From a virus, in IMG/VR virus record IMGVR_UViG_3300031586_000018, positions 1 to 31,660 of that record: 31,660 bases of DNA; one strand, written 5' to 3'. Under the pieces are notes generated by a model. That model saw only the letters and a program-made list of their open reading frames with translations, searched no databases and was not told the origin of the DNA. Below are positions 15,268 through 29,855 of this stretch, in pieces. Each line of letters opens with the position of its first letter. The stretch's first letter is position 1. The position numbers and the translations under genes are program-made.

Positions 15268-17637
15268 GTGAACGTATTCGAGCTTTTCGGGAAGGTTGCT
15301 CTCGATGGGAGCGCGAAGGTAAAGGATGAGCTGACTGGGCTGGAGAAGAAGACTCAGCAGGTCCAGAAAGGTATGCGGGTCATGGGTGCCGCATTTACTG
15401 CTGTGGGCGTTGCCGGCCTGGCCATAATCAGTTCAACCAAGAAGATAAATGCCCAGCTTGGTGTGACGGCGCTGAATCTTGGCGTTACCACTAAGGAAAT
15501 GCGGGACCTAACCCTCGCAGTTACTAATGTGACTTTCGCCATAAGCGAGGTTACGGCAACCTTTGATTTATTGGCCAGGGCTGGGGTAAAAGACACGGAG
15601 GTCCTGAAGGCTACAGCCACAGCCTTCGATACCCTTGGTGACGCTACCGGTAATACGGCTAGCATTACTGCCGGCATTATGATAGATGCAATGAAGACCT
15701 TCGGCCTTACAGCTGAGGAAATAGCCAGTAAGGGCGACATGATGACCCACATGGCCAGAAATAGCACAATAGGCCTCGAAGACTTCGCCACAATGGTTGG
15801 ATACACAGACCAAGAAATGGTCGCTGCTGGACTCACCATCGAAGATATGGCGGCTATGATGATGTATATGGGCGATAGCGGCATCGCACCTGGAAAGGTC
15901 ATGCTTAGAGAGTGGCAGGCGGCGGTTACTCGATCAAAGAAAGAGAACATCTCTATGACCGAGGCTCTCGGTATGACAAGCGAAGAGTTGGCCAAGTATA
16001 ATGGCGGTCTGCAGGATTCCGAGGGGGAAATGCAGCAGTTTGCTGATGCCGCGAATGAGCAATATACCATCATGGACAAGCTCAAACAGAAGTTCAGCGA
16101 GATAACTCTAGGAATGAGTGGTTTCCTTGAGCCTTTGGAGCCGATACTCGCCGGCATGACAGCTTTGGGGCCCTTGATGATAGGATTATCCACCAGCGCC
16201 GGGACTGCCGCGGTCAAGTGGGGACTACACACGGCCGCCCTGGTTGCGCACAAGGTAGCCCTTCTGGCCTCGGCCGTAGCTATTAAGGCGGTCACGGCCG
16301 CTCAGTGGCTATGGAATGCGGCCATGTCAGCCAACCCGATAGGTCTAATTATCATGGGGATAACAGCCCTGATAGCAGCTGGAGTCTTGCTCTGGAAGAA
16401 CTGGGATAAGGTTGTCGATTTCTTCAAGATGGCTTGGTCGAATATAAAGATATTCTTCCTGGAGGGCGTGGAGAAAGTCCTGGGGACGTTGGATAAATTC
16501 TTAGGCTTCCTCCCGGGGCTGGGCGATAAAATCAGAGAAGCTCATGATACCATTGCCGGCATGATAGAGGCAGAGAAGATTGACCGGGACATCCTCCAAG
16601 TCGATAGAGCTCTGAAGAGAAACGAGGAGGCATTAGCTGAAAATCAAGTTGCGATAGAAAATGTAACTGAAGCTACTGACCCCGATTATGTCGATGCTTT
16701 AAATGCCTCGACAGTGGCCTTAAAGGATAATCAAACAGCACTCGAGGACCAGAAAGAGGCCTATGAGAATCTGCTGGAAAAGGCCCAGGAAGCCGTAAAG
16801 CAATTCGAGTATGAGCGAAGCGAAGCCGGCTTACTAGGGATAACCACAAAGGACGTAACGACGGCGCTGGTCGACCAGGGCTGGACCGCTGATAGACTTG
16901 CTGACCTGTGGGCCCAGCTGGGCGATGATGTTAATTATGCTGACCGGTATCTCGCGGCCGCCGGGCTCACTTCGTCCGAAATTGACGCTATACTCAAAAA
17001 ACTCGGGGGCACTGTAAGCGGAGTAGCGGATAATTACGACGAACTCACCGAAAGCGTCCAAGGCTATAGCGCGGCGGTCACGGCCGCAAGCGCAAAGGAA
17101 TACGAAGAGCTGCTGAAACTTCATGAGAAGGGCGAAGAGACCGGCTATGCTGATTACCTCTGGGAAACAGAAGCAGGGCGGGCAGCGATAGCCGCTGATA
17201 TTGCTGCAGCACAAGCGAGTGCAGCGAGAAGTTATGAAGCGATGGCTTCTATTGAAACCGCATTAGCAGCATTTTTAGAGGGCAAACTTTCTTGGGTTCA
17301 GTATATATACGCATTGGGAAGGGAAGCAGGGGGTGGTGGCGGGGATGGTGGCGGAGGAGGCGGCGGTGGAGGTGGCGGTGGAACTCCGCCTCCCGGCCCC
17401 CCAGCGCCTTGGGTTCCCCCCTTTCCAATGCCGGGCTATCAATACGGTGGTCTTATACCGGGGCGACTTGGTGAGGCTGTTCCTATTATTGCACATGCTG
17501 GGGAGGAGGTTGTCCCCGTTAATAAAGTAGGCCGGTCTATAAATATCTATGTCCAACTTGACGGGAAAACGATAGCCAAGGCCATCGGTCAACCATTTGT
17601 AGACGAAATCCGAGTTAGGACAGGGCTGAAGAGCTAA
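15268..17637 (+). CDS. Tail tape measure protein
   Basis: A 789-residue protein that sets tail length and is ejected with DNA. The N-terminal part has ELTGLEKKTQQVQKGMRVMGAAF and the phage tail tape-measure core (SGIAPGKVMLREWQAAVTR, DEMTEALGM-like region). Hydrophobic segments lie at about 310-385 (AAMSANPIGLIIMGITALIA). A glutamate/alanine-rich helical part follows, then a poly-Gly stretch at about 688-706 and a Pro-rich hinge before a C-terminal YGGLIPGRLGEAVPIIAHAGEEVV motif common to these proteins. GTG start, with GAGGAC upstream. Its end overlaps the next start by one base (TAATG). Confidence 0.9.
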   Translation: MNVFELFGKVALDGSAKVKDELTGLEKKTQQVQKGMRVMGAAFTAVGVAGLAIISSTKKINAQLGVTALNLGVTTKEMRDLTLAVTNVTFAISEVTATFDLLARAGVKDTEVLKATATAFDTLGDATGNTASITAGIMIDAMKTFGLTAEEIASKGDMMTHMARNSTIGLEDFATMVGYTDQEMVAAGLTIEDMAAMMMYMGDSGIAPGKVMLREWQAAVTRSKKENISMTEALGMTSEELAKYNGGLQDSEGEMQQFADAANEQYTIMDKLKQKFSEITLGMSGFLEPLEPILAGMTALGPLMIGLSTSAGTAAVKWGLHTAALVAHKVALLASAVAIKAVTAAQWLWNAAMSANPIGLIIMGITALIAAGVLLWKNWDKVVDFFKMAWSNIKIFFLEGVEKVLGTLDKFLGFLPGLGDKIREAHDTIAGMIEAEKIDRDILQVDRALKRNEEALAENQVAIENVTEATDPDYVDALNASTVALKDNQTALEDQKEAYENLLEKAQEAVKQFEYERSEAGLLGITTKDVTTALVDQGWTADRLADLWAQLGDDVNYADRYLAAAGLTSSEIDAILKKLGGTVSGVADNYDELTESVQGYSAAVTAASAKEYEELLKLHEKGEETGYADYLWETEAGRAAIAADIAAAQASAARSYEAMASIETALAAFLEGKLSWVQYIYALGREAGGGGGDGGGGGGGGGGGGTPPPGPPAPWVPPFPMPGYQYGGLIPGRLGEAVPIIAHAGEEVVPVNKVGRSINIYVQLDGKTIAKAIGQPFVDEIRVRTGLKS

Positions 17638-19169
17638 TGAGCACGATAAAGATTGACGGTATTGAAGTTGTTACCGCCAAGGATTCGCTTGTTGTTGAAT
17701 GCCGCATTGAGGAACGTAGCACGGCCGATTTCGATGTCATAGACCTGGTCGGTGCTGCCAGCTATACCCGGGGCCAGCCGGTCGAAATCCGCGACCCGGA
17801 CGATAACCTGGTGTTTGGCGGCTTCATCGACACGCCGAGCTCCCAGCGTGCATACCCGGGCGGCGGCCTTATCCATCATATCTCCTGCATGGACAATCAC
17901 TACCTGGCCGACAAACGCCTTGTGGTTAATTCCTATGTATCTCAAACAGCAGGGTATATCGTAGAGGATATATTCGACCATTATCTCTCCCTTGAAGGCG
18001 TTACTATCGGGGAGATACAGGCCGGGCCAACGGTGGCCCAGGCCATATTCAGCTATGTCAAGGTTTCCGATGCCTTTGATGCACTGAAAGAATTGTCGGG
18101 GGCTTTTACCTGGTTTATAGACAATGAAAAGAAACTCTATTTTATTGATAGGGCTACTATCTCAGCCCCCTGGCAATTAGACTGGGCCACCCATAAAGCG
18201 GAAAGAGACAGCGTTAGTCTGATGACCGGGAATCCCTTATACCGGAATTTTCAGTATATCTGGGGCGGGACTGATATAACCAGCGTGCAAACAGCAACTT
18301 TCACCGGAGATGGGGTTATTAAGACATTTACCCTGGGGTATCCCCTGGCGGCGGAACCTGTAATTACCGAAGATGCCGCCCCGATGGATGTGGGCATCAA
18401 GGGGATAGAATCGGGGAAAGATTATTACTGGTCGAAGGGTGACAGCGCGATCTATGCAGAAGTAGCCCCCGGCATCGGGGTTGTTGTCGCAGTTGATTAC
18501 TACGGGCAGTATCCTCTCATTGCAATGTCCCTTGATAGTGCCTCTATCGCGGCGAGGAAAGTTATTGAGGGAGGGACCGGGATAACTGAAGACATCGAAA
18601 GGGAAGCGTGGCACGAATCCAAGGAATCAGCCAGAGAATCCGCACAGGGGAAACTAACTCAATATTGCCAGGATGCCGAGAAGTTTAATTATCAGACACT
18701 CGAAAGTGGTCTTTTACCTGGCCAGCTTCAGGAAATCACCTATGCACCTTTCGGCTTTACCGCTCATCAGATGTTGATAGAGTCGGTATCTGTTAGCTCC
18801 CAAGGCGGGATAATTATCTACAATATAACCTGCATTACCGGGCCCATTCTCGGTTCCTGGAGCAAATTCTTTAATAATCTATTCATACGGCAAGACCAGT
18901 CAATTCGTGTGGGTGGCGAGATGCTGTTGAAGCTGATAGCCCAGCCCGAGAGTTTAGATTTGGTTGAGGATACCGACATTGATACGGATGACTTCTCGGG
19001 AGGTCTGGTCAATAGATGGCTCAATTCAGCCCCGATAGATGCCGGCTCCCTGGGGAATGTCCAGCATGAAGCTCTGGCTCTGGCCGAAGCTGTAGACGAC
19101 GGTGAGCATACCACCGAGGATTACGAGTGGGATGACGGTTGTCTGTGGGATATGGCTACTTGGGCGTAG
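17637..19169 (+). CDS. Baseplate hub / distal tail-like protein with beta module
   Basis: A 510-residue protein with a gp27/Tal-type pattern: an N-terminal barrel (DLVGAASYTRGQPVEIRDPD, FGGFIDTPSSQ), a second domain beginning SYVKVSDAFDALKELSG and FIDNEKKLYFIDR, then AREAWHESKESA-type helices. Residues 216-292 form a TFTGDGVIKTFTLGYP to VVVAVDYYG module that resembles those in the connector and the second tail protein. The acidic, Trp-rich C-terminus (DYEWDDGCLWDMATWA) may be a docking tail. In siphophages the hub closes the tube and carries the receptor-binding complex. Role is inferred from sequence style and position. Confidence 0.8.
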   Translation: MSTIKIDGIEVVTAKDSLVVECRIEERSTADFDVIDLVGAASYTRGQPVEIRDPDDNLVFGGFIDTPSSQRAYPGGGLIHHISCMDNHYLADKRLVVNSYVSQTAGYIVEDIFDHYLSLEGVTIGEIQAGPTVAQAIFSYVKVSDAFDALKELSGAFTWFIDNEKKLYFIDRATISAPWQLDWATHKAERDSVSLMTGNPLYRNFQYIWGGTDITSVQTATFTGDGVIKTFTLGYPLAAEPVITEDAAPMDVGIKGIESGKDYYWSKGDSAIYAEVAPGIGVVVAVDYYGQYPLIAMSLDSASIAARKVIEGGTGITEDIEREAWHESKESARESAQGKLTQYCQDAEKFNYQTLESGLLPGQLQEITYAPFGFTAHQMLIESVSVSSQGGIIIYNITCITGPILGSWSKFFNNLFIRQDQSIRVGGEMLLKLIAQPESLDLVEDTDIDTDDFSGGLVNRWLNSAPIDAGSLGNVQHEALALAEAVDDGEHTTEDYEWDDGCLWDMATWA

Positions 19170-19178
19170 GAGAATGAT

Positions 19179-19652
19179 ATGAAAACAAAAGATAGAGATT
19201 CCTTAAGATTATACGGAAGGTGGCAGCTTGAAGCCCGCCATATCAAGACGGGCGAGATTATCGTCAAAGAAGGCAAGAACTTAATCTGCGCAGTGGGTAA
19301 GGGGCTGGTCGGCGACCTTATGATTGACACGGCTGGCTTCGACGTGGGGTTGACCTTCTGCGCTATAGGTTCAGACAATACCGCCCCAAATGTCGCTGAT
19401 ACCACTTTAACGGTGGAGGAATTCCGAAAGGCGGTAACTTCTAGGTCAAGAACCGTGAATGAGATAACGATTACCACATTTTTCACCGCCGGAGAGTCAA
19501 CCTATGCGATAGAGGAAGCGGGGATATTCGGGCACTCAACGGCCAGCGCAACACCAGACAGCGGGATTATTTTCAGTCATTGGCTGGTTTCCTTTGACAA
19601 CTCGGGTGGCGTCTACGATATAACGATTTCTTATATTCTGACAATAGGGTGA
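19179..19652 (+). CDS. Tail fibre-like virion protein
   Basis: A 157-residue beta-rich protein: RWQLEARHIKTGEIIVKEGKN, then GLTFCAIGSDNTAPNVADTTL and the end YDITISYILTIG. This pattern, with a characteristic AIGSDNTAP loop, is found in small phage tail-tip or fibre proteins. It lies between the hub and further fibre-like proteins. Function on the receptor is likely but untested. The ribosome site TAGGAGAATGAT is strong. Confidence 0.65.
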   Translation: MKTKDRDSLRLYGRWQLEARHIKTGEIIVKEGKNLICAVGKGLVGDLMIDTAGFDVGLTFCAIGSDNTAPNVADTTLTVEEFRKAVTSRSRTVNEITITTFFTAGESTYAIEEAGIFGHSTASATPDSGIIFSHWLVSFDNSGGVYDITISYILTIG

Positions 19653-19660
19653 GGTGAGAT

Positions 19661-20083
19661 ATGCCAATAGCAACAGGACAACAGATATTGGCGGCGGATG
19701 TATTCCCGATAGCCGCAGGAGTTGGTGATATCCCAGAATGTTTTAATGATACAGAAAATGGCTCTAATGCCACTAGCTACGAGAAAGTGAAAGAGACCAG
19801 CCTGGCCAGAAGTGGAACTCTCAGAATCAAGTTTGATGTCAGGGGCCATCTCTCTGGCACCGGTTACGGCAAAATTTATAGGAACGGAGCCGCAGTCGGG
19901 ACTGAGCGGAGCAACAACACTGATACATGGGTGACCTTTTCTGAGGATATTGCGGGATGGTCGGCTGCTGATTTGTGCCAACTATACACAAAGCATTCTG
20001 CCGGGGGAGGTGCATACAGTAAAGTACGGAATTTCCGTATTTATGTAAATGTTCCTGTCAATAATGTTGCGACAGTAGACTAG
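19661..20083 (+). CDS. Small tail fibre or head-domain protein
   Basis: 140 residues, beginning MPIATGQQILAADVFPI and with a beta core SGTLRIKFDVRGHLSGTGYGKIYRNGAAVGTE and TWVTFSEDIAGWSAADLCQLYTKHS. This reads as a compact beta-sandwich domain of the kind used at the tips of tail fibres. The leading residues may be a docking segment. I do not recognise a named family. Confidence 0.6.
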   Translation: MPIATGQQILAADVFPIAAGVGDIPECFNDTENGSNATSYEKVKETSLARSGTLRIKFDVRGHLSGTGYGKIYRNGAAVGTERSNNTDTWVTFSEDIAGWSAADLCQLYTKHSAGGGAYSKVRNFRIYVNVPVNNVATVD

Positions 20084-20092
20084 GAGTATCAT

Positions 20093-20320
20093 ATGGAAAA
20101 GCAATTACCTTATATTCCAGAGAACAGAGATCAGATTATAGCAGAGCAAGAGGCTCTAGGCTTCAGACTATATGAAGAGCAGATGCATCATTCTGGATGG
20201 TGGCTTTTGTTTACCGACCAGCCTTATGTGGAATCTAAACCCGAGAGAGACCCCATCAAGGAAATAGATGAACTTAAGGCACGGCTAACAGGAATAGAAG
20301 CGAGGGTAGTACCGAAATGA
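20093..20320 (+). CDS. Small hypothetical tail-region protein
   Basis: A 75-residue polar protein with an aromatic centre (HHSGWWLLFTDQPYV) and a C-terminal helix (KEIDELKARLTGIEARV) that could form a coiled coil. It lies between fibre-like proteins and the hydrolase, overlaps the next start by 4 nt (ATGA) and has the ribosome site TAGGAGTATCAT. Small proteins here often act as fibre chaperones or XkdX-type factors. No firm match. Confidence 0.55.
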   Translation: MEKQLPYIPENRDQIIAEQEALGFRLYEEQMHHSGWWLLFTDQPYVESKPERDPIKEIDELKARLTGIEARVVPK

Positions 20321-20850
20321 AATTGGAATCAGGGGATATAGGCGAAGTCAAGGGCGTGGGAACTCTACCCAAACTGAACGCCAAATTAACAGAGCCTCAT
20401 ACTGACCGCTTTCACTTCTTCTTAATCTGGAGGAAGGTCGGGGATGACTGGATAATACTGGAGTCTATAGGTAAAGGAATAGCCGTTGGGAGGTTGTCCT
20501 TCTATGCTGGCCAGGATGTCAAGTTCTACCGTGTGAACTGCCCCGCATATTACCGGCATCGAGCCCCGCTCGAGCTCACGAAATGGGGCAGGAGCAAGTA
20601 CGATTACTCCCTGATTTTATCCATTATCATTCAAGGTCTATGGACAATATTCAAGAATTTCATAAAAGGTGAGGGGGTCCACCCGATAAAGGCTGGCGAT
20701 ATATCCTGGAAGCACAACTCCGCCCTTGTCTGCACTGAAGCCGTTGACATAGCCTATCTGTCTGTCGGAGTGAGTCTGACCGGTGGGACTGTCCCACTTC
20801 CGAGCGCTTTCAAGCAGGCAGAATTAGACGGTCTTATGGAGGAGATATGA
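20317..20850 (+). CDS. Permuted papain-like (YiiX/NlpC-P60 type) hydrolase
   Basis: A 177-residue protein. The pattern is FHFFLIWRKVGDDWIILESIG followed by AVGRLSFYAGQDVKFYRVN, then KYDYSLILSIII and a conserved-looking ALVCTEAVDIAYLSVGV. In permuted papain-like enzymes the His-containing strand precedes the nucleophilic Cys, which fits the His in RFHFF and the Cys in ALVCTEA. Such enzymes cut peptide or amide bonds in murein. As the last enzyme before two membrane proteins it is a good endolysin or tail-lysin candidate. The catalytic assignment is inferred. Confidence 0.6.
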   Translation: MKLESGDIGEVKGVGTLPKLNAKLTEPHTDRFHFFLIWRKVGDDWIILESIGKGIAVGRLSFYAGQDVKFYRVNCPAYYRHRAPLELTKWGRSKYDYSLILSIIIQGLWTIFKNFIKGEGVHPIKAGDISWKHNSALVCTEAVDIAYLSVGVSLTGGTVPLPSAFKQAELDGLMEEI

Positions 20851-21053
20851 GAGACACTCTGGCAATTTTATTTCTGCTCCTATTTTTACCCGCCTGGTTC
20901 GCCTTTATGTTCTGGATTGTTGCGAATTATCCTTTGAATGTGGCCGAGGCTCTTGGGATAGGTACGATAAACGGCGTCTTCCTTGCCGCATTTAAGGATA
21001 TGTGGCAGTTTTACTTTAGAAAAGCTCCATTTCAACTTCCGGGGAAGAAATGA
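20847..21053 (+). CDS. Holin-like membrane protein
   Basis: A 68-residue protein with a strongly hydrophobic N-terminus (LAILFLLLFLPAWFAFMFWIV) and a second weaker segment (GIGTINGVFLAAF), finishing in basic residues (FRKAPFQLPGKK). Two membrane spans with a basic tail match small phage holins, which release endolysins. It follows the hydrolase with a 4-nt overlap and the ribosome site GGAGGAGAT. Confidence 0.55.
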   Translation: MRDTLAILFLLLFLPAWFAFMFWIVANYPLNVAEALGIGTINGVFLAAFKDMWQFYFRKAPFQLPGKK

Positions 21054-21178
21054 TACTCTGGGCGGAGCTCTTTATCGGCTTCTTGATACTCTTTACGGTG
21101 ACAATGACGGTGCTGGTGGGTTTCTGCCTGGTGCTACAGTTTCTCTCATCGCTGCAAGAAATATTTTTTGAGAAATAA
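21050..21178 (+). CDS. 42-residue single-span membrane protein
   Basis: ATG at 21050 overlaps the preceding TGA (ATGA). The peptide has one long hydrophobic segment (ILWAELFIGFLILFTVTMTV) and ends FLSSLQEIFFEK. Size, topology and position next to a holin-like gene suggest an antiholin or second lysis factor. It is the last gene before the terminator. Confidence 0.55.
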   Translation: MILWAELFIGFLILFTVTMTVLVGFCLVLQFLSSLQEIFFEK

Positions 21179-21208
21179 CCTCTTCCATACATACCCCGGT
21201 CTTAGAAG

Positions 21209-21243
21209 GCCCGCCCCTTTTTACGGGGGCGGGCTGTTTTTTT
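21209..21243 (+). terminator. Rho-independent terminator, end of late operon
   Basis: A perfect 9-bp stem GCCCGCCCC/GGGGCGGGC with an 8-nt loop, followed by TG and seven T residues. The convergent repressor gene ends at 21242, so the site separates the two transcripts. A weak T run on the other strand means it may work less well leftward. Confidence 0.9.
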
Positions 21244-21922
21244 ATTTCTTGAAGAGGTTATCTACCGGGCTGGCCAGCTGGTGGGCCTTAATCAGGTCCT
21301 CCTCTCCCAGGGTGGAGACATACCTCCGCGTCATCGATAAGGTACTGTGCCCCAGCATTATCTGCAGGGTGAACTCCGAGCCGCCATTTCTCAGGTAGTT
21401 GATAGCCGCGGTATGCCGGAAGGTGTGGGGACCGCGCTTGGCGCCAGTGATGCCAGCCCGGGCACAGAGTCGCTTGATAGCCATCTGGATACCCGCTAAC
21501 GTATCCCCCTCATGTATCTCCGGCTCTAAACAAAGTCCCTTCACCCGGAAAGCCCGTATTGTTTCTGCGGCGGGTTTTAAGCGGGTATAGGCTACGAAGT
21601 CTATCGGCTCCATGCCTTCCCCGGCTGAAACCTCACCATAGACCGGCACGAAAGACCTGAGCGACAGCTCTATCTCGGGGAGGGCGGCCTCGGGTGGGCG
21701 GGGCTGAGCTATTACCTGGTCAGATATAAACCAAGCTAACGGTTTGCCAAGAATAACGGCAAATCGTTCTATATCGGCAACACCGAGTTTGACATCCCCC
21801 TTTTCTATTCTTGAAATATGAGCATCGGAACAGCCATACATAGCCCCTAGTTCTTCTTGGCTCATGTTAAGCGATTCCCTTGCCTGCTTAATTCTAGCCG
21901 CTATGAGTAATTGCCTATTCAA
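21242..21922 (-). CDS. CI-like repressor fused to integrase C-terminus
   Basis: The 226-residue product joins two known families. Residues 8-65 are an XRE helix-turn-helix (NMSQEELGAMYGCSDAHISRIEKGDV). Residues 90-142 are the first half of an S24/LexA-type domain with a likely cleavage-site Ala-Gly at 100-101 (GEVSAGEG); where the nucleophilic Ser is expected, VKGLCLEPEI has Cys131. From about 144 the sequence becomes the catalytic end of a tyrosine integrase: His166 and Arg169 in HTFRH, His192 in LGHS and Tyr201 in RRYV. The first catalytic Arg and the S24 Lys region are absent. I use TTG 21922 because AAGGAG lies 7 nt before it; longer in-frame upstream sequence is not protein-like. Confidence 0.85.
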   Translation of the reverse strand: MNRQLLIAARIKQARESLNMSQEELGAMYGCSDAHISRIEKGDVKLGVADIERFAVILGKPLAWFISDQVIAQPRPPEAALPEIELSLRSFVPVYGEVSAGEGMEPIDFVAYTRLKPAAETIRAFRVKGLCLEPEIHEGDTLAGIQMAIKRLCARAGITGAKRGPHTFRHTAAINYLRNGGSEFTLQIMLGHSTLSMTRRYVSTLGEEDLIKAHQLASPVDNLFKK

Positions 21923-21947
21923 TTTTATGCTCCTTAATGGAGACAGC

Positions 21948-22020
21948 GTAGGGATTTTCCTACATTTTCCGTAAAAAGTCAATAAAACTACTTGACTTTT
22001 CTTTACCAATATGGTAGGAT
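21948..22020 (+). promoter_or_regulatory. Divergent promoters and operators of the lysogeny switch
   Basis: A 9-bp inverted repeat (AAAAGTCAA 21974-21982, TTGACTTTT 21992-22000) gives TTGACT -35 elements in both directions. Rightward, TAGGAT (22015-22020) follows at 17 nt. Leftward, GAAAAT (21959-21954) follows at 17 nt and is weaker. The leftward -10 lies inside GTAGGGATTTTCCTAC (21948-21963), and the rightward -10 overlaps TACCAATATGGTA (22004-22016). The half-sites share GTAGG, so these are likely repressor operators. Confidence 0.6.
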
Positions 22021-22094
22021 ATTAGTTGCAGGTTAGGGGAATGGATGGAAAGCCATATATTTTTTAGCTTCGGGGATACCAAATAGGTGAGGGT

Positions 22095-22307
22095 ATGGTT
22101 ACCAATAAAGTAATTAAGAAAACAAAACGGATGCTCAAAGAGGAGGCTAGGCTAGGCCAGCCATTAGAGGAGATTATCCCCAAGACCTACGAGAAATTAG
22201 GGAGTCTGGAGGCAGCGGGAGAGGCTTTGGGGATAAACGCAAATACCCTCTACGTCTGGCTTTTGAGATTGGGCTATACCCGAAAAGTAACGCTGGTAAG
22301 GAGATAG
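22095..22307 (+). CDS. Cro-like small HTH protein
   Basis: A 70-residue basic protein with a helix-turn-helix segment LEAAGEALGINANTLYVWLLRLGY (about 34-57). It is the first gene rightward of the switch, where Cro-like repressors lie, and has the ribosome site TAGGTGAGGGT. The likely role is control of the divergent promoters upstream. The HTH is of the Fis/homeodomain-like kind rather than XRE, so it could instead be an early activator. Confidence 0.6.
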   Translation: MVTNKVIKKTKRMLKEEARLGQPLEEIIPKTYEKLGSLEAAGEALGINANTLYVWLLRLGYTRKVTLVRR

Positions 22308-22310
22308 CTT

Positions 22311-22562
22311 ATGGGCGGTGAAATTTGCTTGAGAAAAGGCCGGGAGCGCGGTCCTTGGTACGAAATCCAGTGTGTCAAGAATGACATCATCTCCAAAGAG
22401 TCCCGGGGTGAGGATGCTTCTTATGAAAGGGGTCTCTTGAATTCCTGGGCAAAATACCCCGGTTACAAAACTGCTGGAGATGCCCTCCGTACTCTTGGAA
22501 AATCAACCCACAGCCGCCTTACCACTGCGGCTAATGGTTTGATACCTGAAACAAAAATCTAG
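22311..22562 (+). CDS. Hypothetical early protein
   Basis: An 83-residue polar protein starting MGGEICLRKGRERGPWYEI with no recognisable motif. The sequence KYPGYKTAGDALRTLGKS could be a short helix-turn unit. It lies 3 nt after the HTH gene and is likely co-transcribed. No function can be given. Confidence 0.5.
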   Translation: MGGEICLRKGRERGPWYEIQCVKNDIISKESRGEDASYERGLLNSWAKYPGYKTAGDALRTLGKSTHSRLTTAANGLIPETKI

Positions 22563-22583
22563 CTCATAAGAAGGAGTAAACAA

Positions 22584-22772
22584 ATGTCTTTAGGAACTAC
22601 CACCAGGTCCCGAGAATATCGTGAGGGGAAGATAAGCCGGCGTAGGACATATCGTTGCCGGAAATGCGGCGAGAGGTTTCAGGAGGACAGGCTGGGGCCT
22701 TTACCTGAAAAGGAACGGATCTGCCCTGTATGTCGACATATCAACGAGGTCAACGGAGTAATTAATGACTAG
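22584..22772 (+). CDS. Zinc-ribbon protein
   Basis: A 62-residue basic protein with CRKCG (about 25-29) and CPVCRH (about 48-53), a CxxC-x19-CxxC zinc ribbon. An Arg-rich N-terminus (TTRSREYREGKISRRRT) suggests nucleic acid binding. Strong ribosome site (AAGGAGTAAACAA), 8-nt overlap with the next gene. Confidence 0.65.
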   Translation: MSLGTTTRSREYREGKISRRRTYRCRKCGERFQEDRLGPLPEKERICPVCRHINEVNGVIND

Positions 22773-22992
22773 AGCCGAAGCCGGGCGAATCGGCGGCATC
22801 CAGACCCTGCTCCGGCATGGCAGGGAACACTTCTCTCTTGCTGGACAAAGGGGTGGCCGACCGCGGGCCAGGACTATAAGGCAGCAATCAGCTCCAAGAA
22901 TTTTTACGAAAGGAGAGGCTGCCCAACGGCCTTTTAGCCTTAAGACACTAAAGGAGCTGTGGGATAGCAAGCGGGGAGAGAGCTGCAATTAG
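22765..22992 (+). CDS. Small basic Gly/Arg-rich protein
   Basis: A 75-residue protein with the pattern AGRIGGIQTLLRHGREHFSLAGQRGGRPR, a motif seen in small phage and bacterial proteins with KGG-like repeats. It may bind nucleic acid. The last part (AAQRPFSLKTLKELWDSK) is a short helix. Overlaps the previous gene by 8 nt. Confidence 0.6.
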   Translation: MTRAEAGRIGGIQTLLRHGREHFSLAGQRGGRPRARTIRQQSAPRIFTKGEAAQRPFSLKTLKELWDSKRGESCN

Positions 22993-23001
22993 CTCTCCCC
23001 G
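22972..23001 (+). other. Hairpin covering a stop codon and leading to a ribosome site
   Basis: CGGGGAG...AGCT pairs with AGCTCTCCCCG with a two-base bulge and a GCAATT loop, spanning the stop of the preceding gene. It ends directly before GAAGGAGGCG, the ribosome site of the gene at 23013, so folding could alter translation coupling. No T tract. Confidence 0.45.
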
Positions 23002-23012
23002 AAGGAGGCGAA

Positions 23013-23150
23013 ATGAAAAGCGGCGATGCAATCAGGATAGAGTTCAACACCGAGTATTACTTCCAGAATGGCCTGCGCCTGGTTCTTTACCCCTATAACT
23101 TTACTGAAGCCGGCGTATTCGATGCCTGGTGGAAGGGAAGGCAGAACTGA
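23013..23150 (+). CDS. 45-residue hypothetical protein
   Basis: ATG after the strong ribosome site AAGGAGGCGAA. The peptide MKSGDAIRIEFNTEYYFQNG ends in FDAWWKGRQN, rich in aromatics. Its TGA overlaps the next ATG by one base (TGATG). Too short to assign, but the coupling and ribosome site support it. Confidence 0.55.
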   Translation: MKSGDAIRIEFNTEYYFQNGLRLVLYPYNFTEAGVFDAWWKGRQN

Positions 23151-23374
23151 TGAACCCTGAAGCCCTAAATCTATTAGAGGGGGTAGCGGGAAGTAAGCCA
23201 CGCCGCCGGATGAAGATAACCGATGCCAATATCTCTAAGGGTGAACTTATATACACGGTGCATTGTGTTTGCGATACGGTGTTTGGTGTCTCCCTGTACC
23301 GGTATAGGGTCCGGTGCCCTAATTGTGGACGTGAAAGTTATATGCATAGCCTTATGAGGGATTGGAGTGATTAA
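23150..23374 (+). CDS. Small protein with a zinc knuckle
   Basis: A 74-residue protein with CVCDTVFGV and CPNCGRES, forming a CxC...CxxC pattern. The start at ATG 23150 overlaps the TGA of the previous gene; an upstream in-frame GTG (23129) is less likely. Function unknown; one of several zinc-type small early proteins. Confidence 0.55.
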   Translation: MNPEALNLLEGVAGSKPRRRMKITDANISKGELIYTVHCVCDTVFGVSLYRYRVRCPNCGRESYMHSLMRDWSD

Positions 23375-23507
23375 ATTTTATTGTCTCTACTGTAAGTTCG
23401 CCTCCCCTGACCTGACAGGACTTATAGACCATTTTGGGAGGGAACACTGCCACAGAATATTTTATGCCCTGAATACCAAAGGAGGATTAACTGATGGAAG
23501 AAAATAA
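23367..23507 (+). CDS. 46-residue C2H2-like zinc finger protein
   Basis: GTG at 23367 lies inside the end of the preceding gene, 6 nt after GAGGG. The peptide FYCLYCKFASPDLTGLIDHFGREHCHR has Cys-x2-Cys followed by His-x4-His, a C2H2-like spacing. It overlaps the start of the next gene. The GTG start and shortness keep confidence moderate. Confidence 0.5.
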   Translation: MIKFYCLYCKFASPDLTGLIDHFGREHCHRIFYALNTKGGLTDGRK

Positions 23508-23703
23508 TGTAAAAGCTTTACGGGAAAAGGCTGGGCTTTCCCAAACCGAGCTGGCCAGGCTAGCCTGTGTCGCGAATTCCAATCTATCGTCAATAGAGCA
23601 CTTCAAGCGGGAGCCCTGGCCGATACTCAGGCGACGGTTAGCACGGGCCTTAAAGTGCACCGAGACCGATCTGTTTCCAGAGCAGAGGGGGAAAACACGG
23701 TGA
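23494..23703 (+). CDS. XRE-family HTH regulator
   Basis: A 69-residue protein that is essentially only an XRE helix-turn-helix: KALREKAGLSQTELARLACVANSNLSSIEHFKREPWP, followed by a helix ARALKCTETDLFP. A second regulator besides the CI-like and Cro-like proteins, possibly acting on early or late promoters. It is overlapped by the excisionase-like gene. Confidence 0.8.
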   Translation: MEENNVKALREKAGLSQTELARLACVANSNLSSIEHFKREPWPILRRRLARALKCTETDLFPEQRGKTR

Positions 23704-23984
23704 CCGAAGAGAGATTGACGCTCTCTGTCGAAGAGGCCGCGGCGAAGCTCGGCATCTCGCGAAATTTAGGCTACCAGCTGGCTAAGACCGGGCAGCTCCC
23801 CGGGGTAATACGACTGGGGCAGCGGCGGATAGTAATCTCGAGGGTCCAATTTGAACGCTTCCTCGCAGCTGACCGCCATCGCCAGGAAGCACCACGACCA
23901 GAAGCCGGTACAGGGTATCGAATTTTACAACGAGCCCACCGTAAGGGTGAGCACCAAATAAGGAGGAGTAAAAATGCCAATTAA
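23700..23984 (+). CDS. Excisionase-like winged HTH protein
   Basis: The N-terminal part LTLSVEEAAAKLGISRNLGYQLAKTGQLPGVIRLGQRRIVISRVQFERFL is a textbook excisionase/MerR-type helix-turn-helix-plus-wing of about 50 residues, used by Xis proteins to direct integrase. GTG 23700 is chosen because it overlaps the previous stop and has AGAGGGGGAAAACACG upstream. The C-terminal tail is Arg/Lys-rich. Its presence although the integrase is truncated suggests that integration was once functional, or that it now serves as a regulator. Confidence 0.75.
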   Translation: MTEERLTLSVEEAAAKLGISRNLGYQLAKTGQLPGVIRLGQRRIVISRVQFERFLAADRHRQEAPRPEAGTGYRILQRAHRKGEHQIRRSKNAN

Positions 23985-25143
23985 AGGACTGACCGAGAAG
24001 CGCCGACTGCCCCGGGAGGGCAAGATCCACCTTGGTATAAAGGCCACAACTAACAAGGCAGGGCAGGAATGCCCGCCTTACCCGAAGGCGGTGGACTATT
24101 TCGTATTCCCCCAAGACCATCCTCAATACCAGGAGCTGGTCGATACCTTCGGGGATAAGCCCAAAGAGCTCCGCATCGTTATACCTGTCAATAACGAGGA
24201 GCAGTTCGCAAGCCAATATTACCGGTGCTACTCAAAGAGCAGGGGCCTTATCTGCAAAGGGGACGGTGAAGTGGCTATGCGCACCGTGGATACTGTTACC
24301 GGCGCCATGGCCGATCGGGACTCTAAGACGGTAGAAATGCGGGAGGTCAGCTGTGAGGGTCGGGAGTGCCCCGATTATAAGGCCGGCAAGTGCAAGGAGA
24401 TGATGAACCTGCAGTTTCTTTTGCCGGAGATAACAGGCCTGGGAATCTGGCAGATAGACACCTCCAGCATTAACAGCATCCGTAATATCAACGGGGCCGT
24501 GAGCTTGATTAAGGCTGTCCATGGGAGGGTGGCCATGCTGCCTCTCCTGCTGACCATGGAGAAGATAGAGGTTACCCCGCCGGGCGAGAAGAAGAAACCG
24601 GTGTGGGTGCTGAACCTTAAGAGCCCCACTACCCTGGTTGAGGCGGCTAAGCAAGCCATGCTGAAGCCGTTACAGCTTATCGCCGGCATGGGGCCCGAAG
24701 GGATTCTGACGCCGGTGCCGGATGATGAACGGCCTGAACTGATAACGCATGATTGGGAGGGGTCCATGGGCGACCCTATAGACCCCGACGTGGCCGCTAT
24801 CCCGGTGGACCCGGAGGATTTATGGCCGCCCGGCCCCGATGACCAGCCCACAACTTCGGTCCAGGCGGCACCAGCTGCTAAAACAGCCGATAAAACGCCA
24901 CCGGCTAAGGAAAAGGCCAAGCCACCGGCCAAAGCAGCCCCAAAAGCCACCGCCGAGCCTGCACCGGCGGGCCCGCCTAAAACCATCCAGGCCCTATATA
25001 ACTGGATAGCTTCACATGGGAGAAAGTATGGCCGTACCTGGTTCCTGCAGAATTTTGGATATACCGAGGAGGAGTTGCGGGACCCGGCCAAGGTAGAGGC
25101 GGCTTACCAGGAAGTAATGCAAACTGCGGGCTGGGAGAACTAG
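23974..25143 (+). CDS. Recombination-directionality-factor-like protein
   Basis: A 389-residue protein. The first 240 residues (MPIKGLTEKRRLPREGKIHLG; a four-Cys cluster from CEGRECPDYKAGKC; then GIWQIDTSSINSIRNINGAVSLIKAVHGRVAMLPLLLTMEKIEV) resemble proteins annotated as recombination directionality factor-like in phages. They are followed by a Pro/Ala/Lys-rich linker (KTADKTPPAKEKAKPPAKAA) and a small C-terminal helix-rich domain (GRKYGRTWFLQNFGYTEEEL). I am moderately sure of the family; DNA binding or annealing is an alternative role. It overlaps the excisionase-like gene by 11 nt. Confidence 0.55.
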   Translation: MPIKGLTEKRRLPREGKIHLGIKATTNKAGQECPPYPKAVDYFVFPQDHPQYQELVDTFGDKPKELRIVIPVNNEEQFASQYYRCYSKSRGLICKGDGEVAMRTVDTVTGAMADRDSKTVEMREVSCEGRECPDYKAGKCKEMMNLQFLLPEITGLGIWQIDTSSINSIRNINGAVSLIKAVHGRVAMLPLLLTMEKIEVTPPGEKKKPVWVLNLKSPTTLVEAAKQAMLKPLQLIAGMGPEGILTPVPDDERPELITHDWEGSMGDPIDPDVAAIPVDPEDLWPPGPDDQPTTSVQAAPAAKTADKTPPAKEKAKPPAKAAPKATAEPAPAGPPKTIQALYNWIASHGRKYGRTWFLQNFGYTEEELRDPAKVEAAYQEVMQTAGWEN

Positions 25144-25171
25144 CCCGGGTAATAAATAAGGAGGAGCAACC

Positions 25172-25435
25172 GTGGGAGAAATCAAGGCAAAGGTTACAGT
25201 GGACAAGCTGGAAGCCAAAGTGAAGCTGGTGGAGGAGAAGGAAGAGGGCGTGGTGGTAGACCGCCAGCTGGTCACCGAGGCCAAAATCCAGTATGAGGGC
25301 ACCCCCGCCATGCTGGAGAAGATACTCTACACATTACAGGCGGGGCATACCGTGAAGGCCACCTTTACGACTCCGCAGCGGGGGCTGGATTTACCGGAGA
25401 CAAAAGAGCCGGCTGCGGCCAGAGCAGCGTCTTAA
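25172..25435 (+). CDS. Small charged hypothetical protein
   Basis: An 87-residue protein of alternating charged and hydrophobic residues (KAKVTVDKLEAKVKLVEEKEEG) consistent with beta strands, ending in an Ala-rich tail. GTG start with the strong ribosome site AAGGAGGAGCAACC. Probably co-transcribed with the preceding gene. Its stop codon lies inside a repeated element. No function assigned. Confidence 0.55.
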   Translation: MGEIKAKVTVDKLEAKVKLVEEKEEGVVVDRQLVTEAKIQYEGTPAMLEKILYTLQAGHTVKATFTTPQRGLDLPETKEPAAARAAS

Positions 25436-25609
25436 CAACTGAATAGCCAGTTACACGGGAACCCCAGAATGATGGGGCTACTCCTCTAGAGAGAGAGGCA
25501 GGAAGCCGTGGTGAAAATAAGCTGGCAGGGTAGAAGGCTGGGGTGTTCAGCATTAAAGTCCTTGGCGTGGTGGAATAGACACCAGCCCCAGCCCTGCAAG
25601 GGGGATTAA
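25431..25609 (+). ncRNA. Structured non-coding segment (candidate RNA element)
   Basis: The 174 nt between the genes at 25172 and 25610 lack a coding frame that I can support but hold several stems: AACTG/CAGTT (25437-25452), CCCCA/TGGGG, CCTCT/AGAGG, and a long-range stem GGCTGGGG (25536-25543) with CCCCAGCC (25586-25593), reinforced by GCAG/CTGC outside it. The segment starts with the motif repeated at 30637-30657 and ends at the ribosome site of the next gene. It could be a leader that controls that gene or a small RNA. Confidence 0.4.
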
Positions 25610-25735
25610 ATGAAACTCTACTGCCCCAGGTGCAAAAAGAAAGTAGAAGCGGAGTTGAGATTATTTCAGTGGCGGAAGATGTGGTACTGCCCTAATTGCG
25701 GGGAGCTGCTGTTTAAGAGGGAGAGGACGAAGTGA
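25610..25735 (+). CDS. 41-residue zinc ribbon protein
   Basis: The peptide begins MKLYCPRCKKKVEAEL, has WYCPNCGELLFKRE near the end, and therefore two CxxC pairs spaced by about 18 residues. Ribosome site AAGGGGGATTAA. Its TGA overlaps the GTG start of the next gene. It probably binds zinc; the substrate is unknown. Confidence 0.6.
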   Translation: MKLYCPRCKKKVEAELRLFQWRKMWYCPNCGELLFKRERTK

Positions 25736-26565
25736 ATCACACAAAAATAGAATGGGTCCAAAACCCAGACGGCACCCCGGGCTACACCTGGAATCCAATA
25801 ACCGGCTGCCTGAACCACGTCAACGGAATGTGCAAAGGCGGGGGCTTCCCCTGCTATGCCTACAGGCTAGCAAATGGGCGACTAAAGAACCTGTATCTGG
25901 CACAATCTCCTTTTGAAGGTCATTCGCCAGATGAGACAACATCACCTATTTACAAAGGGATATCATCGTATGACCCCTTCTATCCCCGCTTCTGGCCGGA
26001 GAGGTTACCCCCTGCTACTGGGCTGAAGATGGACTGGAAAGGTGTACCAGTAGGAGTATTCGTCTGTGATATGGGTGAGTTATTCGGCGATTGGGTGCCG
26101 ACAGAGTGGCAAGATGCCATTTTCAAAGTTATAAAGGCTAACCCTTGGCACCGCTTCTACCTCTTAACTAAACAGCCCCAAAACCTGATTAAATTCAGCC
26201 CGTTCCCCCCGAACTGCTGGGTGGGGGTGACGGCTACGGGCTTTCGAGCCTTTGCTGGTGCACATTACTACTTGTCCCGTATAGAGGCAAGGGTTAAATA
26301 CATATCGTTTGAACCCCTTTTATTCTGGGGCGTAGGGGCTTCCCCCCAGCCTTACCAAGAGTTCAGTCGCCATTTGAAAGAGTGTTGCAATTGGGTAATC
26401 ATCGGCGCTCAGACCAAGCCCTATAGACCGCCCAAGATAGAGTGGGTGGAGGAGATTATTGAGGCGGCGGATAAGGCTGGGATACCAGTGTTCCTGAAGG
26501 ATAACCTGAAGTCGTTGTTTGAGAAATATGGTAGTCCTTATGAGTTGAGGAGTGATGAAGGATAA
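25732..26565 (+). CDS. DUF5131 (phage Gp37/Gp68-like) protein
   Basis: A 277-residue protein with the family start TKIEWVQNPDGTPGYTWNPITGC and the cysteines GC...C...CYAYRL (a CX7CX6C pattern, spaced unlike the CxxC of related radical-SAM-type members). Further blocks are WPERLPPATGLKMDW, GVFVCDMGELFGDWVP, FYLLTKQPQN, WVGVTATGF, KYISFEPLL, WVIIGAQTKPYRPPK. The family is widespread in phages and its biochemical role is unresolved. GTG start, coupled to the zinc ribbon gene. Confidence 0.85.
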   Translation: MNHTKIEWVQNPDGTPGYTWNPITGCLNHVNGMCKGGGFPCYAYRLANGRLKNLYLAQSPFEGHSPDETTSPIYKGISSYDPFYPRFWPERLPPATGLKMDWKGVPVGVFVCDMGELFGDWVPTEWQDAIFKVIKANPWHRFYLLTKQPQNLIKFSPFPPNCWVGVTATGFRAFAGAHYYLSRIEARVKYISFEPLLFWGVGASPQPYQEFSRHLKECCNWVIIGAQTKPYRPPKIEWVEEIIEAADKAGIPVFLKDNLKSLFEKYGSPYELRSDEG

Positions 26566-26815
26566 GCAATATTGTATAGGGTGTGATAGCGATTTTTATA
26601 ACGGGAATAATCCTTATGGGGTAAAAGAGTGTTGGAATTTTAAGACTGCCAAGATTGTGACTAAATTCCGTATAGGCTGGTGGACTCCAATGGATAAGGC
26701 TGACCGATTCCAAAAAGTGAAGACGCACAACTGCCATACCGAAAGTGGGAGATTCGCCTTCCTTGATAAAATGCCAGAACATTTGGTTAGCCCTACAGGA
26801 GGGAAGATAGGATGA
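26555..26815 (+). CDS. Small hypothetical protein with Cys pair
   Basis: An 86-residue protein beginning MKDKQYCIGCDSDFYNGNNPYG and containing CHTESGRFAFLDKMPEHLVSP. The CxxC and later Cys/His may bind a metal. The start at ATG 26555 (or the adjacent GTG 26552) overlaps the end of the previous gene and sits next to GAGGAG. Its 3' end is a repeated junction sequence shared with 28798. Confidence 0.5.
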   Translation: MKDKQYCIGCDSDFYNGNNPYGVKECWNFKTAKIVTKFRIGWWTPMDKADRFQKVKTHNCHTESGRFAFLDKMPEHLVSPTGGKIG

Positions 26816-26816
26816 A
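26787..26816 (+). repeat. 30-bp gene-junction repeat, copy 1
   Basis: This stretch, TTAGCCCTACAGGAGGGAAG followed by ATAGGATGAA, is identical to 28798-28827. Each copy covers the end of one gene, a GGAGGG ribosome site and the ATG of the next, but the upstream stop codons are read in different frames (TGA here, TAG in copy 2). Confidence 0.9.
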
Positions 26817-27267
26817 AGCATTAAGTATTAGGCAACCGTGGGCGTGGTTAATCTGCGCCGGCATCAAGGACATTGAGAACCGAAGGAGGCATACCAAGTT
26901 CCGAGGCAGGGTTTATGTGCACACCGGCAAGGTCATAGAGATAAAAGCCTTTGAGCTTCTGGCCGAAATGTACCTCATGGACAAGAGAGGTATCATACGA
27001 ATAGGCAAAGATGTTATTAGTAGGATAATTGAGTATGGCCTGCCCAACCGAGGAATGTTTGCTACCGGCGCCATCATCGGCGAGGTTGATATAACTGATT
27101 GTGTTTGGTCTCAGAATGAAGGTCTGTCGGCCACGAAATCGCCCTGGTTCACCGGCCCCTATGGATGGGTACTGGCTAATCCCGTGGTATATGACAAAGC
27201 TATACCGTGCAAGGGGCGACAAGGCTTCTTTGACCCCAAAATGGAGATACCCGATGTTAGAGCATGA
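26812..27267 (+). CDS. ASCH-domain protein
   Basis: A 151-residue protein with the ASCH hallmark at the N-terminus, KALSIRQPWAWLICAGIKDIENR, followed by KFRGRVYVHTGK, GAIIGEVDITDC and FTGPYGWVLANPVVYDKAIPCKGRQGFF. ASCH domains bind RNA or nucleobases and some members are amidohydrolases or cleave nucleosides. In phages they occur with small early genes. Full domain is present and the length is usual. Confidence 0.85.
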   Translation: MKALSIRQPWAWLICAGIKDIENRRRHTKFRGRVYVHTGKVIEIKAFELLAEMYLMDKRGIIRIGKDVISRIIEYGLPNRGMFATGAIIGEVDITDCVWSQNEGLSATKSPWFTGPYGWVLANPVVYDKAIPCKGRQGFFDPKMEIPDVRA

Positions 27268-27454
27268 TATCAAGCCCAAAGCAGACGAGGTAATAATACG
27301 TTACGGCACGGGGTGCTCGGCCTGGCCCGACTGCTTCACCTGCCCTTTCAAGGACTGCATAGCAGATTACAGCGGCGGGTACAGGCACCATTACAGCATG
27401 AACCACCAAGTAAAAACGGAAAGTGTTAATCACCAAAACAGACATCAAGACTGA
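27254..27454 (+). CDS. Small Cys-rich protein
   Basis: A 66-residue protein with GTGCSAWPDCFTCPFKDC, four cysteines in one cluster, likely zinc binding, and a His-rich end. The ATG at 27254 has GGAG 7 nt before it; the longer in-frame sequence starting at 27101 is merely the ASCH gene read in another frame. It overlaps the ASCH gene by 14 nt and the next gene by 32 nt. Confidence 0.55.
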   Translation: MLEHDIKPKADEVIIRYGTGCSAWPDCFTCPFKDCIADYSGGYRHHYSMNHQVKTESVNHQNRHQD

Positions 27455-27758
27455 GCTCCGGCGCATCCTGGAGCGGCACCAGGGCAGGGACCAGGCCGTC
27501 ACCGGCATGGAGCTGGCGAAAAGGCTCGGCCACCGGAATGACCGGGAAATCCGGCAGGTTATCCGGGAGCTGATAGCCGAGGGGCTACCGGTGGCCAGCT
27601 GCGGCGCTGGCTACTTTCTGGCGACCAGCTATGCCGAGGCCCGGGAATATGCCGACTCGCTGAAAGGCCGGCTTATTGAGGATGCGCTGCGCCGGCGTGA
27701 TTTCCGCAGAGCCGCCGACTGCCACTTAAGGCTGGCCACACAGAGAAGGCTAATTTGA
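27423..27758 (+). CDS. Winged-helix-type protein
   Basis: A 111-residue protein, GTG start. The N-terminal 65 residues (LRRILERHQGRDQAVTGMELAKRLGHRNDREIRQVIRELIAEGLPVASCGAGYF) show a wHTH layout with strand turn GYFLATS, and the rest is a basic helix (RRRDFRRAADCHLRLATQRR). It probably regulates or aids replication, since the neighbour is a replication-initiation protein. Overlaps the Cys-rich gene. Confidence 0.6.
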   Translation: MLITKTDIKTELRRILERHQGRDQAVTGMELAKRLGHRNDREIRQVIRELIAEGLPVASCGAGYFLATSYAEAREYADSLKGRLIEDALRRRDFRRAADCHLRLATQRRLI

Positions 27759-27770
27759 AGGGAATAACCG

Positions 27771-28535
27771 ATGGCTAGAACACAGAAGGATACAGTTAGC
27801 TATTTCCCACACGATGCTTATTCCTCGGCCAAAAGTGACACTGTGACAGTGCTCCAGAGCAGATTTGGTAATGACGGATATGCCTTCTGGTTCAAGCTGC
27901 TGGAGAATCTGGCTACGACCGGTGGGCATTATATTGACCTGAGAAATCCCGCCAGGTTGCAGGTGTTTATGGCCAAGATGGGCGTCGAGAAATTACTGGG
28001 TGTAGAAATGCTTAATTTACTTGTAGAAATGGAGGCCATTGACAAGGAGCTCTGGGAGTCGAAGGTAATCTGGTGTCAAAACCTGGTGGATAATGTCGCC
28101 GATGTCTATAAAAACCGCCGGCGGGAAATACCCCGAAAACCGATAATTACAGGCAATAATCGAATAACTACAGAGAGTAATGCCAAAACTACAGGTAGCC
28201 TATCTGTAGAAATACCACAAACTAAATTAAATAAAACTAAACTAAATAATATTAAAGGAGAGGGAGAGGGGGGTATGGGGGGAGATTCCACACCCTCACC
28301 AGCTGCTCAAAAGGTATTAGATATATTTCTTAAAAAATTCCCTTATGCCTTCGGGAGAGAGCCCAACAGCAGGGAACAAGCGCAGCTGAGGGACTTTGCC
28401 GCCGAGGTCGCTGCCGGCGGCGGCGCCACGGAAAAACAGATACATGATGCCTTTGCAGAGGCGGCGGGCCAGAATAAGTGTAATGTGAGATACGTCCGGG
28501 CGGTACTACTGGACTGGCTGGGGGTGCAGCGGTAA
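27771..28535 (+). CDS. Replication initiation protein, DUF4373/Lin1244-like
   Basis: The N-terminal half (DTVSYFPHDAYSSAKSDTVTVLQSRFGNDGYAFWFKLLENLATTGGHYIDLRN) matches the Lin1244/Lin1753-like domain typical of phage replication organisers. The middle is Asn/Thr/Lys-rich and low complexity (about 125-170), and the C-terminal 80 or so residues (KKFPYAFGREPNSREQAQLRDFAAEVAAGGGATEKQIHDAFAEAAG) are a helical DnaD-like part that would recruit helicase. At 254 residues the length is normal. Gene order supports a replication role. Confidence 0.8.
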   Translation: MARTQKDTVSYFPHDAYSSAKSDTVTVLQSRFGNDGYAFWFKLLENLATTGGHYIDLRNPARLQVFMAKMGVEKLLGVEMLNLLVEMEAIDKELWESKVIWCQNLVDNVADVYKNRRREIPRKPIITGNNRITTESNAKTTGSLSVEIPQTKLNKTKLNNIKGEGEGGMGGDSTPSPAAQKVLDIFLKKFPYAFGREPNSREQAQLRDFAAEVAAGGGATEKQIHDAFAEAAGQNKCNVRYVRAVLLDWLGVQR

Positions 28536-28581
28536 CTATGAGTAGCGTATATTTTTACACACTAAAAAAGGGGGGTGAGTG

Positions 28582-28821
28582 ATGCCATTAGCTAATTATA
28601 CTACGGGTGTTCAGGCCAACAAGACTGTCGGTGAAATCCGTGGTAAACCTCTTGCCCCAAACTTTTACGCTATTGTCTTGAGGATTGATGACGGTAGGTA
28701 TCTCCACGCTTGCCGTGCCGGTGTTGCAGCATTTGGTGAAGCAGTAAGGAGCGAAAATCCCATCTTGGCTGATGATATACAAACCAAATTAAGGGAATTA
28801 GCCCTACAGGAGGGAAGATAG
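28582..28821 (+). CDS. Hypothetical early protein
   Basis: A 79-residue protein beginning MPLANYTTGVQANKTVGEIRGKP, with FYAIVLRIDDGRYLHACRAGVAAFGEAVRSENP. The ATG is 7 nt from a GGGGGG ribosome site, so I prefer it to GTG 28579. No known domain. Its end is copy 2 of the 30-bp junction repeat. Confidence 0.55.
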   Translation: MPLANYTTGVQANKTVGEIRGKPLAPNFYAIVLRIDDGRYLHACRAGVAAFGEAVRSENPILADDIQTKLRELALQEGR

Positions 28822-28827
28822 GATGAA
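28798..28827 (+). repeat. 30-bp gene-junction repeat, copy 2
   Basis: Identical to 26787-26816. In this copy the downstream ATG opens only an eight-codon frame (MKPKWSSS) before a stop, so the real following gene starts at 28834 in another frame. The copied start appears to be a remnant of a gene that was replaced. Confidence 0.9.
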
Positions 28828-28833
28828 GCCCAA

Positions 28834-29118
28834 ATGGTCTTCCTCGTAATCAAAATTAGAACAGGTTTCAAACAAGGGTCTGAAACCGTTTATAAGTGCG
28901 ATAATTGTGGTAAAGAAGCAAAAGACGTTGTGCCTGCTGGCTGGTTTCTATTAGGGTTCGCCATAATTAAGCACCTGCAATTCCCTGAAGGTATTAAACT
29001 AAAAATGCCCATCGCTAACAAACCCGATTGGCAGATTACGCACCATTTTTGCTCTGAACAGTGTATGAACGAAGCTGTCAAAGTTAAGTCTAGCCCCACT
29101 AATGGGGAGGGGGAATGA
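28834..29118 (+). CDS. Zinc-finger-like small protein
   Basis: A 94-residue protein with YKCDNCGKEA and HHFCSEQCMNEA, a CxxC plus CxxxC treble-clef-type site. Around it lie LLGFAIIKHLQFPEG and a polar end that terminates in SSPTNGEGE, the same last residues as the 55-residue protein at 29646. The ribosome site is weak. Probably a metal-binding accessory protein. Confidence 0.55.
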   Translation: MVFLVIKIRTGFKQGSETVYKCDNCGKEAKDVVPAGWFLLGFAIIKHLQFPEGIKLKMPIANKPDWQITHHFCSEQCMNEAVKVKSSPTNGEGE

Positions 29119-29122
29119 GAAA
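29091..29122 (+). repeat. 32-bp gene-boundary repeat, copy 1
   Basis: The sequence TAGCCCCACTAATGGGGAGG and the following GGGAATGAGAAA occur again at 29786-29817. It contains a CCCC/GGGG hairpin, a GGAGGGGG ribosome site and the ATG of the next gene. It encodes SPTNGEGE at the end of the upstream gene in both copies. Confidence 0.9.
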
Positions 29123-29621: not shown

Positions 29622-29645
29622 GGGGAGCCCCAAGGAAAGGAGAAG

Positions 29646-29813: not shown

Positions 29814-29817
29814 GAAA
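29786..29817 (+). repeat. 32-bp gene-boundary repeat, copy 2
   Basis: Identical to 29091-29122. Here the ATG opens only a four-codon frame (MRND), so the downstream gene that once followed has been lost and the current one (29856) starts further on. Confidence 0.9.
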
Positions 29818-29855
29818 TGATTAACAGTAGAGTAATACTATGAAGGAGGATGAGC

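Follow-up and report, generated by a model that had tools for sequence, protein, structure and literature searches.

The open reading frame at 21242-21922 of the window (the whole analysed stretch of 31,660 nucleotides, IMG/VR record IMGVR_UViG_3300031586_000018) very probably marks the place where a temperate tailed phage, whose hosts are probably Dehalococcoidales, recently lost about 1.3 kb of its lysogeny module. The frame fuses a truncated repressor in frame to the catalytic end of a tyrosine integrase and is most likely a remnant. The features concerned are as follows.

21208-21235, minus strand: integrase terminator stem-loop, sequence common to the window and the related record L003
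21242-21922, minus strand: chimeric open reading frame of 226 aa, TTG start at 21922, stop TAA; identical in L002/L106
21242-21496, minus strand: integrase-derived part, 84 residues and stop, with box II His-x-x-Arg, His and Tyr (Phage_integrase, 3.2e-11)
21496-21497, minus strand: deletion junction between codon 142 (TTA) and codon 143 (GCG), from alignment to L003 and to the related locus L251
21497-21922, minus strand: repressor-derived part, 142 residues comprising XRE helix-turn-helix (HTH), linker and first half of an S24 domain (HTH_3, 2.6e-12)
21948-22020, no strand assigned: putative divergent promoter and operator-like region with the palindrome GTAGGGATTTTCCTAC and inverted TCCTAC/GTAGGA arms
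22095-22307, plus strand: small gene divergent from the repressor, no Pfam match; counterpart upstream of the intact L251 repressor (3581-3802)
23694-23984, plus strand: excisionase-like HTH_17 gene, intact in the window; weak partial match in the sister genome G016
23974-25143, plus strand: Gp3-like (RDF-like) gene, kept also in G016

Frame and Pfam matches confirm what the earlier note had read from the letters, namely one uninterrupted leftward frame that passes from an XRE/S24 repressor into the end of an integrase. The TTG start aligns with the ATG of L251, the closest intact repressor. An XRE helix-turn-helix is present at the N-terminus according to both the HTH_3 match (residues 11-65) and the structure model. 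Peptidase_S24 gives a weak N-terminal half-match (residues 93-142, E 0.18) and the complete C-terminal S24 domain is absent, while an intact relative matches the profile over positions 1-104 with E 1.7e-10. The Phage_integrase match spans residues 145-203 (profile positions 110-167 of 172). PHROGs splits the protein in the same way, with the repressor family phrog_4 over 7-142 and integrase families over 145-215.

The catalytic set Arg-Lys-His-Arg-His-Tyr is incomplete. Like XerD-like phage tyrosine integrases (PF00589; nearest solved structure XerD 1a0p) the fusion has a C-terminal catalytic half with His166, Arg169, His192 and Tyr201, but it lacks Arg I and the beta-hairpin Lys, as judged from a relative's integrase aligned to XerD. 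Moreover Pfam finds no SAM-like core-binding domain in the fusion, unlike in the integrase of L003. The earlier note was thus right about the missing first Arg and core-binding domain, and every residue it had named, Ala100-Gly101 and Cys131 included, is correct. Structure prediction, which it had proposed as a check, was run with a six-sequence alignment. It gave a confident HTH (pLDDT 77-94 over residues 1-60) and low pLDDT for the linker, the S24 piece and the integrase piece. The low values weigh little, because the alignment is thin and no good mixed alignment of both halves was obtained. No record covering both halves was found in the phage and plasmid collections, and the phrase "repressor-integrase fusion" combined with other topic terms was not found in a literature search.

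The closest intact repressor, L251, has 206 aa and is 55% identical over residues 1-143 of the fusion. Across the junction the fusion reads GDTLAGIQMAI where L251 goes on GDTVIVDTAIQ (in context ...CLEPEIHEGDTL/AGIQMAIKRL... with the junction at the slash, against ...CLEPDVHDGDTVIVDTAIQP...). L251 comes from a genome that belongs to the same order as the Dehalococcoidales MAG. A full integrase follows 0.43 kb downstream of its repressor, and the same small divergent gene stands beside it. No close unfused parent of the repressor half was found in viral_contigs.

Cys131 had been taken as a sign of damage. The equivalent position is Cys in the intact repressors L251 (GLCLEP), L007 (GKCLEP), L006 (GKCMEP) and G023/L258 (GHCLEP) as well as in L261, L262, L270, L271 and L273. 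With nine intact relatives carrying it, Cys131 predates the deletion and, judged from these sequences, is a trait of the clade and not damage. An S24-type repressor clade in which Cys replaces the nucleophilic Ser is represented by L251 (3966-4586), L007 (3238-3867), L258, L262, L270, L271 and L273. Some repressors of this clade seemingly lack the usual Lys too.

Relatives with separate repressor and integrase genes, which the earlier note had suggested looking for, were found among the integrase relatives. All of 12 unintegrated ones carry a repressor followed by a codirectional integrase. In 10 of them the gap between the two genes contains a tRNA 3'-half, the expected attP, mostly ~62 bp ahead of the integrase. 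In prophage forms the integrase lies directly behind a whole tRNA gene, which is Ala in L003 and L019, Lys in L026, Val in L027 and Met in L265. Temperate relatives such as L003 and L251 hold the intact module at the corresponding genome position. The window differs from the ten in that no cognate attP adjoins the integrase part; an attP-like tRNA piece was not found anywhere in the window (Rfam: nothing of note).

An attP within the repressor gene, as in integration-dependent immunity, was considered and rejected, since in 10 of the 12 relatives it sits between the two genes and it was seen within a repressor in none. Mycobacteriophage BPs (PMC4557955), which has integration-dependent immunity, shares the close linkage of repressor and attachment site and the importance of the repressor C-terminus. 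There attP belongs to the repressor, whereas in the relatives of the window it is intergenic and the window itself has none. One relative, L261 (4321-5942), has full-length repressor and integrase genes with just 39 bp between them; a tRNA 3'-half was not found there, and attP may have been lost or may be of a different type.

The ancestral order in the relatives, together with the match to L003, indicates that the fusion reflects a deletion. The ancestor would have carried repressor, attP (tRNA 3'-half) and integrase in this order. A single illegitimate deletion would then have cut away the last third of the repressor together with attP and integrase codons 1-236, and joined the remaining ends in frame. 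Judged by relatives, about three quarters of the integrase were taken. Measured against L251 and L003, the lost segment adds up from about 195 + 430 + 708 bp, so that ~1.3 kb is our estimate and about 1.0-2.0 kb would cover the gap lengths seen in relatives. The claim that a deletion joined adjacent repressor and integrase genes is therefore strongly supported; the proposed size of about 1 kb is better put at ~1.3 kb, and attP went as well.

The S24 half dimerises CI-type repressors. A phage without attP, integrase and this dimerisation half would be able neither to integrate nor to hold stable repression, which points to a lytic life. The earlier note had suggested a phage that may be locked in its state; "locked into lysis" is the better wording for what the missing parts imply. 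The chimeric protein, if made, would fold at the HTH and bind operators weakly at most, because it has lost the dimerising half and its integrase part comes without core-binding domain, Arg I and Lys. Neither maintenance of lysogeny nor recombination is to be expected from it. The best reading, with host and lifestyle taken from relatives, is that a temperate phage of Dehalococcoidales-type hosts has recently given rise to this obligately lytic form.

By analogy the mechanism is of a known kind, as virulent derivatives arise via lysogeny-module deletion (PMC6526443). In Lactobacillus casei phage A2, deletions of 0.5-3.5 kb fall into two dispensable regions, and clear plaques result when the lysogeny module is hit (PMC6526443). 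These mutants share with the window a kilobase-size deletion that removes repressor functions, in the window also integration. In contrast, the deletion in the window is natural, comes from metagenomes and has its breakpoints inside repressor and integrase, leaving an in-frame chimera. The strictly lytic phiIPLA35, a derivative of the S. aureus phage phiA72, likewise has a repressor truncated at the C-terminus (PMC6526443). It loses 25 residues, whereas the window has lost ~64 repressor residues, attP and the greater part of the integrase.

The integrase half has a near-identical counterpart in L003 (IMG 3300031351), which encodes an intact integrase of 320 residues; 83 of the 84 residues are identical to its positions 237-320. 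DNA homology with L003 sets in precisely at the junction (window 21496 = L003 899) and continues through the common terminator, and the gene order downstream is that of the window. The L003 integrase starts 38 bp past a complete tRNA-Ala gene, so L003 resembles the end of a prophage. Among genomes, the nearest integrases belong to hosts of the Dehalococcoidales and other Chloroflexota.

Between the fusion and L003 the integrase piece has a dS of 0.13 with one replacement. Most flanking genes show dS 0.57-1.0 and two neighbouring genes 0.31-0.41. One or no replacement in 84 residues at such a dS means that the deletion is young or the piece constrained. If the piece is unconstrained, the deletion would be younger than ~19%, about a fifth, of the divergence from L003. 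A nearly unchanged piece is expected under constraint too, and the data do not separate the two.

At the DNA level, integrase piece and terminator match L003 at ~96% identity, against ~83% for the 1.2 kb stretch as a whole, which suggests a separate history of this segment. Hence the two halves might stem from illegitimate recombination between phages, one contributing the repressor and the other an L003-like integrase, instead of a deletion within one genome. We regard this as unlikely, since with the identical gene order in twelve relatives a simple deletion is enough to explain the fusion, and the integrase piece may have been swapped in before the deletion. The outcome for the phage would be the same.

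The window is not the only case. A different phage, L004 (IMG 3300031553), carries an independent in-frame fusion of repressor and integrase with other breakpoints. Here the first 24 repressor residues (MAGNWGFHIKRLREMRGLTQKELA) are joined to the integrase just past the first catalytic Arg, so that the HTH is cut ahead of the recognition helix and destroyed. From relatives, both parents are expected to read Glu-Leu-Ala at this junction (HTH "TQ.ELA", integrase "SELAN"), which makes a microhomology of ~9 bp plausible. A third damaged repressor, L263 (4048-4431, 127 aa), has an in-frame internal deletion by which linker and cleavage region are gone and the C-terminal 50 residues kept; attP and integrase next to it are intact. 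Frame retention in both fusions has a chance of 1/9, in all three damaged repressors of 1/27, a hint that retaining the HTH protein may be of some use.

Among 80 surveyed integrase loci only the window and L004 show repressor-integrase fusions. A search for fusions also covered truncated integrases in 156 genomes from the order to which the L026 genome belongs; the six short-frame matches inspected were all ordinary decay, frameshifts or repressor-less fragments. A C-terminal integrase remnant next to a transposase-like gene pair (L252, 1686-1976) on a chromosome of the same bacterial order represents ordinary prophage decay.

These observations bear on whether the fusion was kept as a working regulator, its HTH binding operators and its integrase piece serving as a tail for oligomerisation or DNA contact, with weak Cro-like control or partial immunity as the result. 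The HTH is confidently modelled, the frame is maintained in both fusions and L263, and the integrase piece is hardly altered. Moreover the operator-like palindromes and divergent promoters look intact. The latter are two back-to-back sigma-70-like promoters at 21948-22020, consensus matches only and not more numerous than in shuffles. With these putative promoters and palindromes in place, weak operator binding is possible. However, the L004 fusion is cut before its recognition helix, which leaves no DNA-binding function common to both fusions, recency explains the conservation of the integrase piece equally well, and all parts of the window's fusion beyond the HTH have low pLDDT. Residual function is thus improbable; it keeps a small share because shortened repressors sometimes work, as does the C-terminally shortened CI of TP901-1, which can still repress (PMC4892519). 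For the new role that the earlier note had offered as an option we find no positive evidence, and L004 argues against a shared function.

In a broader form, deletions across attP would repeatedly create chimeras that are retained, the one in the window binding operators weakly as a monomer or oligomerised by its integrase tail. We give this little chance. If true, a retained chimera would provide a lytic phage with residual self-control or with protection from the immunity of temperate relatives.

Metagenomic contigs frequently contain strain mixtures, and an assembler could have joined repressor and integrase of different strains. This is very improbable, since the junction recurs in a second IMG/VR record (3300031654_000292, from IMG sample 3300031654) that corresponds to window 16138-30094 and is 100.000% identical over its 13,957 bp, with zero differences. 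The two assemblies are likely independent. In addition, a k-mer check found no 12-mer from the 60 bp around the junction elsewhere in the window, hence there is no local repeat that could mislead an assembler or its graph, and in L004, another phage, these two genes are fused in a different way. The terminase-end DNA of the window is identical in the further records L115 and L116. The fusion is a genuine natural event, and the second record makes unlikely both an assembly error and a confinement to this assembly, which the earlier note had raised.

Searches with PF00589 (tyrosine recombinases) and PF00239 (resolvase type) detected no other recombinase in the window, in agreement with the earlier note. 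As it had also stated, excisionase-like and RDF-like genes remain. The window is not quite a whole genome: ~1.2 kb of the sister G016 are missing between its two ends, and the corresponding stretch of G016 holds no recombinase. G016 has 32,979 bp, is circular, as its start recurs at its end, and is 93-97% identical to the window in many blocks. It is nearly identical from about 20242 to 21142 and carries other genes between the equivalents of 21142 and 23208. Neither relatives of the fusion, repressor or integrase, nor PF00589 or PF00239 matches were found in G016, which has lost repressor, attP and integrase altogether. A pentapeptide-repeat-like open reading frame (ADLSDADLRNADLRN...; L212, G016 26243-26902) occupies the place of the lysogeny module.

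The RDF-like gene had been read as a sign of a missing integrase. G016 keeps this gene without a recombinase match, so its presence in the window does not imply a lost integrase. Among 19 related or similar records searched, PF00589 matched in 6 and a resolvase in 1; phages with such a terminase and no recognisable integrase are therefore common. That the phage is a satellite or partner using the full integrase of another phage, for which the intact excisionase-like gene might speak, is scarcely credible given the long uninterrupted terminase-, portal-, capsid- and tail-type frames of the window, its lack of an attP-like tRNA piece for any integrase and the RDF-like gene persisting in integrase-less G016.

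Under the deletion reading, the genomes line up as graded steps by which uncultivated phages with Dehalococcoidales-type hosts pass from a temperate to a lytic life: intact relatives, the window with one deletion and a whole excisionase-like gene, and circular G016, where none of the module remains. That this gene pair was fused twice independently marks the repressor-attP-integrase block as a recurrent deletion target. For annotation this is a warning, since a "repressor" or "integrase" match here would suggest a temperate phage although the module is broken.

Elsewhere in the window, a 755-aa open reading frame contains an internal direct repeat of about 280 bp at 89% identity (8903-9363), and an exact 85-bp tandem copy lies at 4942-5103.
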